DNA from: Burkholderiales bacterium
GTDB lineage: Bacteria; Pseudomonadota; Gammaproteobacteria; Burkholderiales; Casimicrobiaceae
Assembly (NCBI GenBank): GCA_016790165.1
Contig: JAEUPL010000032.1
Coordinates: 1 to 64,000 of the forward strand
Reading direction: 5' to 3'
Length of the DNA stretch: 64,000 bases
The notes under the pieces were generated by a model, which saw only the letters and a list, made by a program, of their open reading frames with translations, ran no database searches and was not told the origin of the DNA. This document shows, one piece after another, positions 19-61,270 of the stretch. Each line of letters opens with the position of its first letter. The first letter of the stretch is position 1. Made by a program: the position numbers and the translations under genes.

Positions 19-136
19 AGTTTGACCCCCATAGCTAACTGGCCCCACCCCTTCCCATCCCGAACAGGACCGTGAAACAGTTCAGCGCCAATGATAGTCA
101 GCCTTATAGCTCGCGAAAGTAGGTCAGGGTCAAACT
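19..136 (+). rRNA. rrf: 5S ribosomal RNA
   Basis: The segment carries the hallmark bacterial 5S core CCCATCCCGAACAGGACCG followed by TGAAAC, and ATGATAGT and CGAAAGTAGGTC in the 3' half. Its ends pair as helix I: AGTTTGACCC at 19-28 with GGGTCAAACT at 127-136. The length of about 118 nt is normal. It must be the last gene of an rRNA operon whose 23S lies left of the window. A strong intrinsic terminator follows directly. Exact mature ends are inferred from helix I. Confidence 0.93.
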
Positions 137-8640: not shown

Positions 8641-9037
8641 GGGTATGGACGGACCGGATCGGCCTCAACGGCGCTCACTCTGAGCGAAGCCCTTGATTTT
8701 ATTGGCGAGCGGCACCGCGTTCTCCCGCGCACCCGACGCACGACCGCTGTGGTGTTCGGCCATCGGCGGTTTAACAGCTTTATTCAATTTCGACGCGCTA
8801 TCGACAACAGGCAGGCGCTTTCACGATCCAGATTGGCAAAGTCGACTTTGAAGAAAAAGGCTGCGAAATGACCGCGCAGCCGCCGCTACATCGAAAAAGC
8901 CAATCGAACGCAATGCGTGCTGCGACAATCGTGGGAAGGCAACGCGTTGGTCGACAGTCCTCCGCCGCCAGACGCTGCGCCGGGGGCGCGACCGCGATGC
9001 CCGCACCAGTGGCAATCCACACCCACAAAGGCACTGC
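8641..9037. other. 397-bp intergenic region without a recognisable gene
   Basis: This gap separates the divergent hslU and isochorismatase-like genes, so it should hold both promoters. No hslV-like frame, tRNA, hairpin with T-tract or known riboswitch was found. A stretch near 8773-8863 shows a faint likeness to the dispersed 123-bp element (AACAGCTTT start, GTCGAC inside, GAAAAAGGCTG end), but it is about 91 bp long and too degraded to call. Confidence 0.6.
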
Positions 9038-18642: not shown

Positions 18643-19050
18643 GTGGCTGTTCGCTACGTGCTCGACACGAACATTTGCATCTACATCGCGAAGCACAATC
18701 CTCCGGCTGTTCGCGTGCGGTTTGCGGCGCACGCGGCCGATGCGCTGGCGATGTCAGTGATCACGATGGGCGAGCTGCGGCACGGGGCTGAAAAGAGCCA
18801 AGCGCGCGACAGGTCGCTGGCCACGTTGCAACAGTTGGTGGCGGTGATCCAGGTGATGCCGCTCACGGAGGCGGCGGGTCGTCATTACGGCGAGATTCGC
18901 AGTGCGTTGGAGCGCGCCGGGCAAACCATTGGCAACAACGATCTGTGGATCGCGGCGCATGCTCGCGCTGAAGGCTGGGTACTGGTGACCAACAACGAAC
19001 GTGAATTTCGCCGGGTGGAGGGCTTGGCGGTGGAAAACTGGGCGAGTTGA
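18643..19050 (+). CDS. vapC: VapC-type PIN-domain ribonuclease toxin
   Basis: A 135-residue PIN-domain protein. Acidic metal-binding residues are D8 (VLDTNICIY), E44 (TMGELRHG) and D100 (GNNDLWIAAHA), with the closing VTNNEREF loop. VapC toxins cut tRNA or rRNA when the antitoxin is lost. The start is GTG, abutting the vapB TAG. The final motif RVEGLAVENW is typical of the FitB/VapC branch. The pair borders the restriction island and may help keep it. Confidence 0.9.
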   Translation: MAVRYVLDTNICIYIAKHNPPAVRVRFAAHAADALAMSVITMGELRHGAEKSQARDRSLATLQQLVAVIQVMPLTEAAGRHYGEIRSALERAGQTIGNNDLWIAAHARAEGWVLVTNNEREFRRVEGLAVENWAS

Positions 19051-19088: not shown

Positions 19089-19211
19089 ATGGCTTTTCGG
19101 CGGTAACGACCACTATACAGTCGTTACCGCAGGCTTTTCACTGATGTCGACATAATAATAAAACGCTCCGAGCGACCACCGGATGGTGGTTTGTGCAGAA
19201 AAGCTGTTAAC
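19089..19211. repeat. Dispersed 123-bp palindromic element, copy A
   Basis: First of four related intergenic elements (others at 30101, 49909 and 61147). It opens with ATGGCTTTTCGG and ends with GCAGAAAAGCTGTTAACC. The left arm holds a perfect nine-pair hairpin GGTAACGAC / GTCGTTACC. The right arm holds ACCACC / GGTGGT. GTCGAC lies at offset 57, near the centre. It sits between the convergent ends of vapC and the gamma-glutamyltransferase gene and could also act as a bidirectional terminator. Confidence 0.8.
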
Positions 19212-19249: not shown

Positions 19250-20836
19250 TTAAAACCCCACCGCGCAGCCATCACGCCGCGGGTCGCTGCCGGTGATATA
19301 GCCATCGGGCGTCTTCCAGATGATCTGCCCGGAGCCGAAGTCCATGTAACTGTCCTTGTTCTCTTTCAACTTGTGGCCTCGCGCGGCGAGCTCACTGCGC
19401 ACGTCGGCGGGTGTCCACGGTTCGAGGTCCACTTCCAGCCCCAGTTCGGCGCGGAAGCGCGGCCCATCGAGCGCCGCCTGCGGGTTCTCGCCGAAGTCGA
19501 TCATGCGGATGGCCGTCTGCAGATGGCCCTGCGGCTGCATGTGGCCACCCATCACGCCAAACGCGCTCTGCGGCTGGCCGTCTTTCAAGATGAAGCCGGG
19601 GATGATGGTATGGAACGGTCGCTTGCCGCCGGCGACGCAGTTGGGATGCGCCGGGTCCAGCGTGAAGCCGTAGGCGCGGTTCTGCAGTGAGATGCCGTCC
19701 ACCACCACGCCCGAGCCGAAGCCGTAGTAGTTGGACTGGATCAGTGACACCATCAAACCGTTCCCGTCGGCAGCGTTCAGGTACACGGTTCCACCACGCA
19801 GCTCGGTGCTGGGCGAAAAATTCTGCGCACGCTTCAGGTCAATCAACCTGGCACGACTGCGCAGGAAGTCACGGTCAAGCATCGCGCTTGCCGACACATT
19901 CATGTACTCCGGGTCCGCCACCTGGGCGTGCACGTCACGGAACGCGAGCTTCATCGCCTCAATCGAGAGGTGCCAGTAGTCCGGGTGCGCCGGTCCGAGC
20001 GACTTGAGGTCGAAGTCTTCGAGCATGCCCAGCGCCATCAGCGCCGCGATGCCCTGGCCGTTCGGCGGGATCTCGGCGACTTCGTAGCCGCGATAGCTCA
20101 TCCGGATCGGCTCGACCCAGTCGGCCGTGTGCGCGGCGAGATCAATGCCTGACATCAGGCCACCGTGCGCCTTGGCGTGCGCCACGATGCGCGCGGCGAG
20201 TTGCCCACGATAGAACGATTCGCCTTCGCTTTCGGCAATCAGTCGCAACGCCTCAGCTTGCGCCGGGTTGCGGAACAGCTCGCACGGCGATGGGGCGCGG
20301 CCATGCGGCATGAAGTGCTCGGCGTAACCGGGCTGGTTTTGCAGGATCGGCACCGCCCGCGCCCACTGGCTCGCGATGATCGGCGTGACCATGTAGCCGC
20401 GTTCGGCGATGTCGATGGCGGGCGCGAGCAGGTCGGCGAATGGCAACTTGCCGTAACGCTTCGACAATGCCACCCAGCCGGCGATCGCACCGGGCACCGA
20501 CACGCTCATCCACCCGCGCATCGGCATGCTGTCCATGCCCTTGAAGGTATCCGGCGTCCATGCCTGAGGCGAGCGACCCGATGAATTGAGGCCATGCAGC
20601 GCCTTGTCCTGCGGGCTCCAGATCAGCGCGAAGAGATCGCTGCCGAGACCGTTGCTGCACGGCTCAACCACGGTCAGCACAGCTGCCGTGGCGATGATGG
20701 CGTCGACGGCGTTGCCGCCGGCGCGCATCATCTGCAAACCGGCCTGCGCGGCCAGCGGATGGGTGGTGGCAACCGCATTGCGCGTCATCAACGGCGAGCG
20801 GCCACCGGGGTAGGGGCGGGTAAAGTCAAAATTCAT
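19250..20836 (-). CDS. ggt: Gamma-glutamyltransferase-family protein
   Basis: A 528-residue Ntn-hydrolase precursor. The autoprocessing nucleophile is T350 in ELRGGTVYLN, which would split it into large and small subunits; a conserved region of the small subunit is GGKRPFHTIIPGF. The N-terminal large subunit shows TTHPLAAQAGLQMMRAGGNAVDA. Start ATG 20836 gives no signal peptide (MNFDFTRPYPGGR), unlike the periplasmic Ggt of enterics, so it is probably a cytoplasmic GGT or cephalosporin-acylase-like amidohydrolase. It stands alone, 109 bp from the secreted protein gene upstream. Confidence 0.82.
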   Translation of the reverse strand: MNFDFTRPYPGGRSPLMTRNAVATTHPLAAQAGLQMMRAGGNAVDAIIATAAVLTVVEPCSNGLGSDLFALIWSPQDKALHGLNSSGRSPQAWTPDTFKGMDSMPMRGWMSVSVPGAIAGWVALSKRYGKLPFADLLAPAIDIAERGYMVTPIIASQWARAVPILQNQPGYAEHFMPHGRAPSPCELFRNPAQAEALRLIAESEGESFYRGQLAARIVAHAKAHGGLMSGIDLAAHTADWVEPIRMSYRGYEVAEIPPNGQGIAALMALGMLEDFDLKSLGPAHPDYWHLSIEAMKLAFRDVHAQVADPEYMNVSASAMLDRDFLRSRARLIDLKRAQNFSPSTELRGGTVYLNAADGNGLMVSLIQSNYYGFGSGVVVDGISLQNRAYGFTLDPAHPNCVAGGKRPFHTIIPGFILKDGQPQSAFGVMGGHMQPQGHLQTAIRMIDFGENPQAALDGPRFRAELGLEVDLEPWTPADVRSELAARGHKLKENKDSYMDFGSGQIIWKTPDGYITGSDPRRDGCAVGF

Positions 20837-30100: not shown

Positions 30101-30224
30101 TACAGCTTTTTCGCTGTAACGACCAGTTGGCGGTCAGTGCATCGAATTTGGCGCAATAGTCGACTTGGCAACTAATCGGGCGCTAGCGACCGCAGAACGG
30201 TCGATGAGCCGAAAAAGCTGTTAA
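30101..30224. repeat. Dispersed 124-bp palindromic element, copy B
   Basis: It opens with TACAGCTTTTTCGCTG and closes with CCGAAAAAGCTGTTAACG, so the termini form an inverted repeat. The left arm hairpin is GTAACGACC...GGTCAGTGC (partly mismatched); the right arm has GACCG-CAGAA-CGGTC. GTCGAC is at offset 58. It lies between the convergent ends of the radical SAM gene and the gene ending at 30241. Confidence 0.82.
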
Positions 30225-49908: not shown

Positions 49909-50031
49909 ATGGCTTTTCGCGTACAACGACCGCCCAGTGGTCGTTGCAGCCCGATTTAGCGACAAGTCGCAAGAATCGCGCGATGCGCTGAAACCCTTAT
50001 CCAGACGTCGTTAGCGCGAAAAAGTTGTGGC
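49909..50031. repeat. Dispersed 123-bp palindromic element, copy C
   Basis: It runs from ATGGCTTTTCGC to GCGCGAAAAAGTTGTGG. The left hairpin CAACGACC / GGTCGTTG is a perfect eight-pair stem whose bases differ from copy A but still pair. The centre has GTCGC rather than GTCGAC, at offset 57. It lies in the divergent region between the binding-protein gene and the terC operon, ending 11 bases before the predicted terC promoter. Confidence 0.75.
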
Positions 50032-59832: not shown

Positions 59833-61107
59833 TCAGGCACGCACGTTGCCTTCGCCCAGCACCACATACTTCTGCGTGGTCAGGCCTTCGAGGCCTACCG
59901 GGCCGCGGGCATGCAGTTTGTCGGTGGAGATGCCGATTTCGGCACCAAGACCGTACTCAAAGCCATCGGCGAATTGCGTGCTGGCGTTCACCATGACGCT
60001 GGCGCTGTCGACCTCGCGCAGAAATCGCTGCGCGTGGCTCCAGTGCTCGGTGACGATGCTGTCGGTGTGGTGCGAACCGTAGCGCTCGATGTGCTCGATG
60101 GCTTCATCGAGGTCGGCGACGATCTTGATCGAAACGATCGGCGCGAGGTACTCGGTCGACCAATCTTCCTCGGTCGCGGCGTTCACCTCAAACGCGGCGA
60201 GCACACTGCGCGTGCGCTCACAGCCGCGCATCTCGACGCCCTTGTCGGCAAAAATCTTTGCCACACGGGGCAACACGTCATGCATGCGCGCTTCGTGCAC
60301 GAGCAGCGATTCCATCGCGCCGCAAACACCGTAGCGCCGGGTCTTGGCGTTGTCGCAGATGCGCACCGCCTTTTCAAGATCGGCCTGTTCGTCGACATAG
60401 ACATGGCAATTGCCATCAAGGTGCTTGATGATCGGCACTTTCGCCTCTGCCGCGATGCGCTGGATCAGCCCCTTGCCGCCGCGCGGGATGATGACGTCGA
60501 TGTATTCCGGGCGCGTGATCATCTCTCCCACTGCAGCACGATCGGTGGTTTCCACGACCTGCACGATGTGCTCGGGCAACCCCGCCGCCTTGAGCCCCGC
60601 AGCGATGCAACCGGCAATGGCCTGATTGGAGCGCGCGGCCTCGCTGCCGCCGCGGAGCACCACGGCATTGCCGCTCTTCAGGCAAAGGCCGGCGGCGTCG
60701 GCCGTCACGTTGGGTCGTGATTCGTAGATGATGCCAATCACGCCGAGCGGCACGCGCATCCTGCCGACACGGATGCCCGAAGGACGGGCCGCCATACCCG
60801 TGAGTTCGCCGACCGGGTCGGGCAGTTGAGCGATTTGGCGCAGGCCGTCGGCCATGCTGCTCACGGTCTTGGGGGTGAGCGTCAGGCGGTCGATCAGCGC
60901 CGGGGCGAGGTCGGCCTTTTTGGCGTCGCGCACATCGGCGGCGTTTTGCTCCAGGATGTGTGCCTCGCGGCTGGCAACGACGTCGGCGATCTCGTTCAGC
61001 GCCGTGTTCTTCGCGGCCGTCGGCGCGCAGGCGATGACGCGGGCGGCGGCGCGAGCGCTGCGGCCCACGAGATGCATGTATTCGGTGACGTCGAGCGGTT
61101 TGTTCAT
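59833..61107 (-). CDS. proA: Gamma-glutamyl phosphate reductase
   Basis: A 424-residue ALDH-fold enzyme for the second step of proline synthesis, reducing gamma-glutamyl phosphate to the semialdehyde. Visible marks are [34 protein letters not shown], the catalytic cysteine in [14 protein letters not shown] and [19 protein letters not shown]. Length is normal. proB is not adjacent. A copy of the 123-bp element begins 40 bases upstream of its start. Confidence 0.95.
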
Positions 61108-61146
61108 GACAGCATTCTATCTGTCATGTTCACCGTGCCCGAGCAC

Positions 61147-61270
61147 TACAGCTTTTTGCCTGCAGTGACCATCTGGCGGTCATTACAGCTGATTTTGTGT
61201 TGATATCGACTAGTTGACAAATCGAGCGGAAACGACCAACGCACAGTCGATAACGGCAAAAAGCTGTTGC
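61147..61270. repeat. Dispersed 124-bp palindromic element, copy D
   Basis: It starts TACAGCTTTTTGCCTG and ends CGGCAAAAAGCTGTTGC, so the outer termini pair. The left hairpin is AGTGACC / GGTCATT; the right arm has AACGACC with AGTCGATAACG. The centre is ATCGAC at offset 58. It occupies most of the gap between proA and the substrate-binding gene, both on the minus strand, just upstream of proA. Confidence 0.82.

Follow-up and report, generated by a model that had tools for sequence, protein, structure and literature searches.

The palindromic elements of about 120 bp found between genes in the 64,000-nucleotide stretch of DNA analysed here (the window) belong to a large family that, judged by its sequence signature and within the genomes searched, is confined to one genus of Burkholderiales. 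Our best explanation, which we would call about evenly balanced between right and wrong, is that each element is a composite, dyad-symmetric DNA recognition site which turns over slowly and has a putative trans-acting partner co-evolving with it. The core motif has changed in step across the copies, which suggests that one protein may recognise all of them.

The window contains five copies. An earlier sequence-only reading had located four of them, and all four were confirmed; a fifth, at 8777-8900, had been missed. Taken in register from GCTTTT to AAAAGC, the four cores measure 114 bp each, and no strand is assigned to any copy. Copy 1 (19092-19205) lies between convergent genes, namely a gene at 18643-19050 on the plus strand and the gamma-glutamyltransferase gene at 19250-20836 on the minus strand, and it is missing from the corresponding gap in the genus members G005 and G012. 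Copy 2 (30105-30218) also stands between convergent genes. Copy 3 (49912-50025) lies between divergent genes at a site common to G005, and copy 4 (61151-61264) between an SsuA-like gene and proA. With a covariance model made from 23 copies of the window's own genome, these four included, they score 82-105 bits. The fifth copy was absent from the training of the model and was matched at 8769-8908 with 44 bits, on both strands (43.8 and 38.2 bits); its core of 124 bp is 10 bp above the norm, and divergent genes lie on either side. A 5S rRNA gene is found at 21-135 (plus strand), at the start of the contig, and given this gene the contig end is probably an rRNA operon.

The consensus of 58 equal-length copies is the same on both strands and consists of the end motif AACAGCTTTT, a dyad AACGAC-N8-GGTCGTT, a W-tract ATTTT and the centre AAGTCGACTT, followed by the mirror image. 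In copy 4 these parts, delimited by consensus and information per column, are the left terminal motif GCTTTT at 61151-61156 (plus strand; model positions 9-14), the left dyad of the type AnCGACC-N7-GGTCGTT at 61164-61184 (model 22-42), the centre of GTCGAC type, here ATCGAC, at 61205-61210 (model 63-68), the right dyad at 61231-61251 (model 89-109) and the right terminal motif AAAAGC at 61259-61264 (plus strand; model 117-122). The shared ends and GTCGAC-like centre proposed earlier hold for the family, whereas copy 3 deviates from them with the centre GTCGCA and the end AAAAAGT. Terminal inverted repeats are present (AACAGCTTTT/AAAAGCTGTT), with conserved ends that are only about 10 nt long, and conservation reaches about 4 nt beyond the 114-bp core before the background level of information is attained. 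The end-motif columns carry the highest information among the 58 copies, and of the end-motif pairs, 10-121 is Watson-Crick in all 58 and 11-120 in 57; the invariance of GCTTTT in the first 23 rows is partly circular, since most of these rows had been retrieved by GCTTTT itself. The near-constant length inferred from the window extends to the genome, where 58 of 63 copies span exactly 130 model columns, and to G005, where 49 of 54 span 128-130. The two dyads stand in inverted orientation, as in the layout of REPINs. Two half copies in G005 (C1:261979-262045 and 1364196-1364267) stretch from one of the end motifs to roughly the centre and look as if the two halves of the element can separate.

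The own genome, from an uncultured organism, comprises 3.76 Mb in 41 contigs. The pattern GCTTTT-N-TCGA-N-AAAAGC occurs 104 times in it, compared with 2 matches for the reversed pattern, and the model search returned at least 150 matches, the weakest among those listed with an E-value of 1.2e-13 and the best down to 4e-27. Within 464 kb (the window and 20 further stretches) we counted 31 copies and within another 398 kb 32, giving 63 copies in 862 kb, all of at least 38 bits, and the next matches in this genome score 15.7 and 15.6 bits; the profile scan that the earlier reading had called for is thus well above background. In the own scan, 3 of 66 rows were left out (19.6, 8.3 and 5.2 bits), and in the G005 profile scan 10 of 64 (six below 9 bits and four partial copies of 19-37 bits). 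The density of one copy per 13.7 kb extrapolates to about 250 copies in the genome, in agreement with the expectation of many more copies beyond the window. The mean identity among copies of one genome is low (58-59%), which is what chance short-range similarity or an assembly artefact might produce, and the closest pairs reach 73.8% among 61 own copies and 70.5% among 51 G005 copies, in the sampled 862 kb and 800 kb, respectively. We nevertheless give this explanation almost no credence, and it is refuted by the pattern counts, the within-genome E-values and the presence of the family in ten further genus genomes, with no match in 23 genomes from elsewhere.

The own-genome model matched 11 of 40 genomes, all of them among the 17 searched of the genus. 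With a looser pattern, ten genus genomes gave 9-155 matches compared with 0-3 control matches, and the remaining seven gave 0-4 (control 0-3); by eye, some of the few matches in G011, G014 and G007 resemble relatives of the element with a different centre. Among 293 genomes of the order outside the genus, the pattern was matched 0-5 times, about as often as the control (0-4), and elements with other ends or another centre would escape it. A strict pattern was found on two contigs of the Burkholderiales metagenome-assembled genome JANXUB01, isolate 339R_metabat_247, in the genome_contigs collection, from which near relatives of the window were possibly excluded. Viral contigs gave no match to a strict pattern, and a search of plasmids with copy 2 gave none either. 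We found no description of this element family in the open-licence literature searched, and as before no match to any named family emerged.

Copies in G005 have the same ends and centre and nearly equal length but a different dyad: AACGACC/GGTCGTT in the own genome is replaced by AAGCCC/GGGCTT. When the profiles of both genomes were compared, 88 of 88 own copies and 84 of 85 G005 copies preferred the profile of their own genome, with 61 and 23 of these copies, respectively, also present in the training sets. The same was seen at all seven sites occupied in both genomes, three of whose pairs lie outside both training sets. At these sites the own copy scores 47-89 bits with its own profile versus 4.5-17 with that of G005, and the G005 copy 50-71 bits with the G005 profile versus 2.5-24 with the other. 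In small samples read by eye, the copies of G003 and one copy of G008 are of the AACGACC type, like those of G000, the dyad of G015 is of a GGGGCTA type, and in G012 the GCCC type prevails beside a few AACGACC copies. Sorted by broad type, G000, G003 and G008 belong to AACGACC, and G001, G004, G005, G006 and G015 to GCCC. In a tree built from ProA and gamma-glutamyltransferase, G000 groups with G005 and G012 (support 0.72), G003/G008 join the clade of G001, G015, G004 and G006 (0.99), and one deeper node has a support of 0.40. Since these groups cut across the dyad types, the code has apparently changed on more than one occasion in the genus. A neutral relic, such as a decayed MITE, would retain the old code at old sites; this was not seen, and the idea is unsupported because the shared old copies carry the code of the genome in which they reside. 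Gene conversion was also considered and rejected, as it would homogenise the linkers too, which was not observed.

Occupied sites are shared between the two genomes more often than expected. A counterpart in G005 is present for 7 of 11 testable own elements, and a counterpart in the own genome for 7 of 12 testable G005 elements, where 19-21% is expected, the fraction of intergenic regions of at least 120 bp that hold an element (binomial P 0.0014 and 0.005). Counted over conserved gene pairs, four carry the element in both genomes, one in the own genome only, one in G005 only and 65 in neither (Fisher P 2.5e-5); with at least 100 bp between the genes in either genome, the numbers are 4, 1, 1 and 24 (P 0.0009). 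Upstream of proA, the element is present in 9 of 13 genus genomes by the model and in 10 of 13 by leniently matched ends, the 13 being those members with upstream DNA available. All ten copies measure 112-114 bp from the outer limit of one end to that of the other, and their right end lies 43-44 nt before the ATG. In these ten members a TAGAAT/TAAAAT/TAAACT box begins 12 nt before the ATG, and in two members without the element it begins 15 nt before it. This box (within window 61107-61150; proA loci L114-L126) resembles a -10 box for an mRNA that is leaderless or nearly so.

Descent of a copy in place, as opposed to re-insertion, is shown at one site only, that of the copy at 49912. Only one of 88 own copies and one of 85 G005 copies have the rare centre GTCGCA, and because these two form an orthologous pair, we conclude that the copy was inherited vertically. 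The four shared pairs that were compared have saturated linkers, with a whole-copy identity of 52-57% as for unmatched pairs, a divergence too great for the linkers to decide on shared descent. Four sites are occupied in the own genome only and five in G005 only. At several sites the gap without the element is shorter by about one element, for example 90 instead of 211 nt behind the gamma-glutamyltransferase gene and 70 instead of 186 nt elsewhere; therefore, whole copies are gained or lost as units. The search for empty sites proposed earlier has thus yielded element-sized differences between species, although no target duplication.

With gene calls made for the purpose, 61 of the 63 own copies are intergenic, with 16 between convergent, 33 between tandem and 12 between divergent genes; in the comparison set of intergenic regions of at least 120 bp, these classes number 43, 167 and 84. 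Copies lie a median of 28 nt from a gene end and 138 nt from a gene start in the own genome, and 27.5 and 140 nt in G005. Moreover, the copies avoid each other. Pairs less than 4 kb apart number 5 of 59 in the own genome, where 13.3 are expected (P 0.0016), and 2 of 52 in G005, where 12.1 are expected (0 of 5000 simulations), under a null in which intergenic regions of at least 120 bp are drawn at random. The coefficient of variation of the spacing is low in the own genome (0.65, P 0.0018) but not in G005 (1.02, P 0.66), and the 43 placed copies on the closed G005 chromosome show no overall clustering. One stretch of that chromosome (C1:110400-215300; L148-L153), 105 kb long and with a coding density of 90%, lacks a full copy, compared with about one per 14 kb elsewhere, and is perhaps a genomic island. 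We also considered whether the elements act as synteny breakpoints and rejected this, as synteny is broken at 1 of 6 element-bearing and 3 of 71 other gene pairs (P 0.28). As a separate observation, both genomes encode proteins with repeated DGK-type units (own contig C15:3158-4726, L088; G005, G5a 157954-163651), whose C-terminal stretches resemble dockerin repeats by eye.

The hairpin arms described in the sequence-only reading exist as dyads, but their pairing across copies is about that of independent columns. The first 23 copies had shown a weak excess of covariation, with 3 to 26 of 500 shuffles reaching four of five measures and none the fifth. This excess, and with it the case for a hairpin or RNA, shrank to a non-significant z of 1.9 in 116 own dyads and is gone in 34 dyads of G005 (z -0.2). 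No excess pairing was found for the ends (z -1.2), the centre (0.6) or the left against the right dyad (0.6). Because significant base-pair covariation is lacking, the dyads look like DNA-binding motifs and not like maintained hairpins. These data bear on the possibility that the element acts at the RNA level, as a bidirectional terminator or a pair of mRNA 3'-end hairpins transcribed from both sides. Such a role would fit the position close behind stop codons and the frequent convergent placement (16 of 61 own copies versus 43 of 294 intergenic regions of at least 120 bp, and 16 of 53 versus 32 of 282 in G005). The four copies known at first in the window fold better than shuffled sequences (z -2.8 to -4.75, plus strand), and in the own genome more T and less A are found in the tract that follows whichever dyad a transcript enters first (P 0.002-0.016). 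The hairpin energy in G005 leans the same way (P 0.056), but the T bias was not replicated there (P 0.85). An uninterrupted stem of at least six pairs is present in at least one dyad of 37 of 58 copies but in both dyads of only 2 of 58 (plus strand) or 6 of 56 (entering strand); the seeming shortage of copies with two strong stems on the plus strand disappears on the entering strand (P 0.57). Furthermore, divergent genes flank 12 own and 9 G005 copies, and no Rfam family matched any element: with the Rfam 15 covariance models, only the 5S rRNA was found in the window at gathering score, and at a permissive threshold around two copies only weak matches beside the element appeared. We therefore consider an RNA-level function improbable.

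The main rival of our best explanation is a very slowly moving element of the REPIN or MITE type, in which the dyads and ends would be transposase sites and non-autonomous copies would be scattered at a low rate and tolerated or used by the host. The inverted pair of REP-like dyads, as in REPINs, the element-sized presence and absence differences between species, the degraded partial and half copies (four in G005, one in the own genome) and the location just behind stop codons (median 28 nt) are all consistent with it, and target immunity would fit the avoidance of close neighbours. Genes with a Y1_Tnp domain, as in RAYT transposases, would be the obvious candidates for such a transposase and are present in 15 of 17 genus genomes. 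However, there are no copies close to a master sequence, the best pairs being 74% identical in the own genome and 71% in G005, and no target duplication is visible: matching flanks are not in excess at 61 own and 51 G005 copies, although old insertions could have lost theirs. The search for a RAYT-type transposase with the same ends was unsuccessful, since a scan with the own and G005 profiles around 23 of the 44 listed Y1_Tnp genes found no full copy nearer than about 1.2 kb. Contig ends cut some of these stretches and the codes of other species could escape these profiles; a weak partial match (E 1e-4) 161 nt from one such gene is the exception. In addition, G015, which is 95% complete and has 155 pattern matches, contains a single Y1_Tnp match with an internal stop, and we have rejected a RAYT as the recogniser on these two grounds. 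The shared old copies bear the code of their own genome, and no viral contig matches a strict pattern. The genes beside the four partial copies, or between a G005 half copy and its full neighbour, are not transposase-like by eye. Because copies appear and vanish, a slow mobile element with its transposase as the trans factor deserves some belief, and we regard it as doubtful but by no means negligible. Independently of this, we noted a Y1_Tnp subfamily of about 173-209 amino acids (measured between stops), which has four paralogues in G005 and counterparts that are 75-86% identical between some species; its loci (L207, L208-L211, L215, L217, L218, L220, L222, L224) have borders without full elements.

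According to the explanation that we prefer, a composite recognition site with a co-evolving partner, the end motif, dyad, centre, dyad and end motif would be held at fixed spacing over about 120 bp and bound as DNA by a putative sequence-specific trans-acting factor encoded by the genus. Copies would be old and mostly inherited vertically at fixed intergenic places, and their gain or loss would be slow and as whole units. Selection would preserve spacing and recognition code and leave the linkers free to drift, and when the specificity of the factor drifts, every copy would follow. Selection by a trans factor that reads dyads, ends and centre would explain the fixed length, the saturated linkers and the concerted change together. 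We infer that the factor may be a protein which binds the whole site at once. The placement behind gene ends and the mutual avoidance suggest a function between transcription units, and the purpose might be to organise or insulate the chromosome there. As guesses about the role go, the boldest is chromosome organisation, and the plainest is termination. In its boldest form, which we put forward only tentatively, the family would be a genus-specific chromosome-organising system of about 250 nucleoprotein sites, spaced apart and mainly behind gene ends, served by a rapidly evolving architectural protein, with an AACGACC/GCCC code that has switched repeatedly and sites that followed in concert. 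Gyrase, IHF and HU are not expected to change their specificity within one genus, and a known architectural protein would therefore fit poorly.

The usual account of dispersed repeats in bacteria treats them as mobile debris. Hundreds of sites tracking a recognition factor that changes would be a natural experiment, and the consensus DNA offers a direct handle for catching this factor. If the role is architectural, the family would represent a new way to divide a bacterial chromosome.

Overall, the family is of the same general kind as known repeats, yet MITEs, REPINs, ERIC and NEMIS each have at least one tested feature that it lacks. The kinship with Correia/NEMIS or REP-like repeats suggested earlier holds insofar as size and layout recall ERIC, NEMIS and REPINs, while an ordinary MITE is not supported: terminal inverted repeats are common to both, but the present element has neither target duplication nor, in the sampled stretches, near-identical copies. 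ERIC or IRU sequences (127 bp, enterobacteria) are similar in size, palindromic layout and intergenic placement. Their sites are shared between species, whereas the element described here has a species-specific internal code at shared sites; ERIC was compared through complete E. coli genomes, in which blastn with copy 4 found no match. Correia/NEMIS elements of Neisseria occur in many copies. In PMC2229807, which describes ERIC and NEMIS, the latter are about 105-155 bp long and have terminal inverted repeats, as here, but these repeats are of 24 bp and are accompanied by a target duplication with TA ends and, in some copies, an IHF site; our element has ends of about 10 nt, no 24-bp repeat and no duplication.

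REPINs, which PMC8049555 and PMC2817692 characterise as inverted pairs of REP sequences with RAYT transposases, share with our family the pair of REP-like dyads inverted about a centre, an intergenic copy number in the hundreds, a long persistence and a code that would co-evolve with a trans factor. They differ in their head motifs GTAG and CGTC (PMC3733652), neither of which is present in the consensus of 58 own and 49 G005 copies, and in populations centred on a master sequence, as defined in PMC8049555; here there is no such cloud, but a fixed 114-bp core with end and centre motifs of its own. They also differ in that no full element stands beside the Y1_Tnp genes examined here and the family is present in G015 with its sole Y1_Tnp gene interrupted. 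The BRE repeats of Bordetella and other Betaproteobacteria are likewise intergenic and occur in the same bacterial class. They are given in PMC3110155 as about 90 bp, often tandem, more than 70% identical and present in up to 29 copies, while our element is single, about 120 bp and present about 250 times, a comparison by size, number and arrangement only. Finally, BIMEs, symmetric and REP-based, are bound by gyrase, IHF and Pol I according to PMC2817692. The symmetric layout is common to both, and the element presented here is set apart from BIMEs by a dyad code that varies among the species of one genus.
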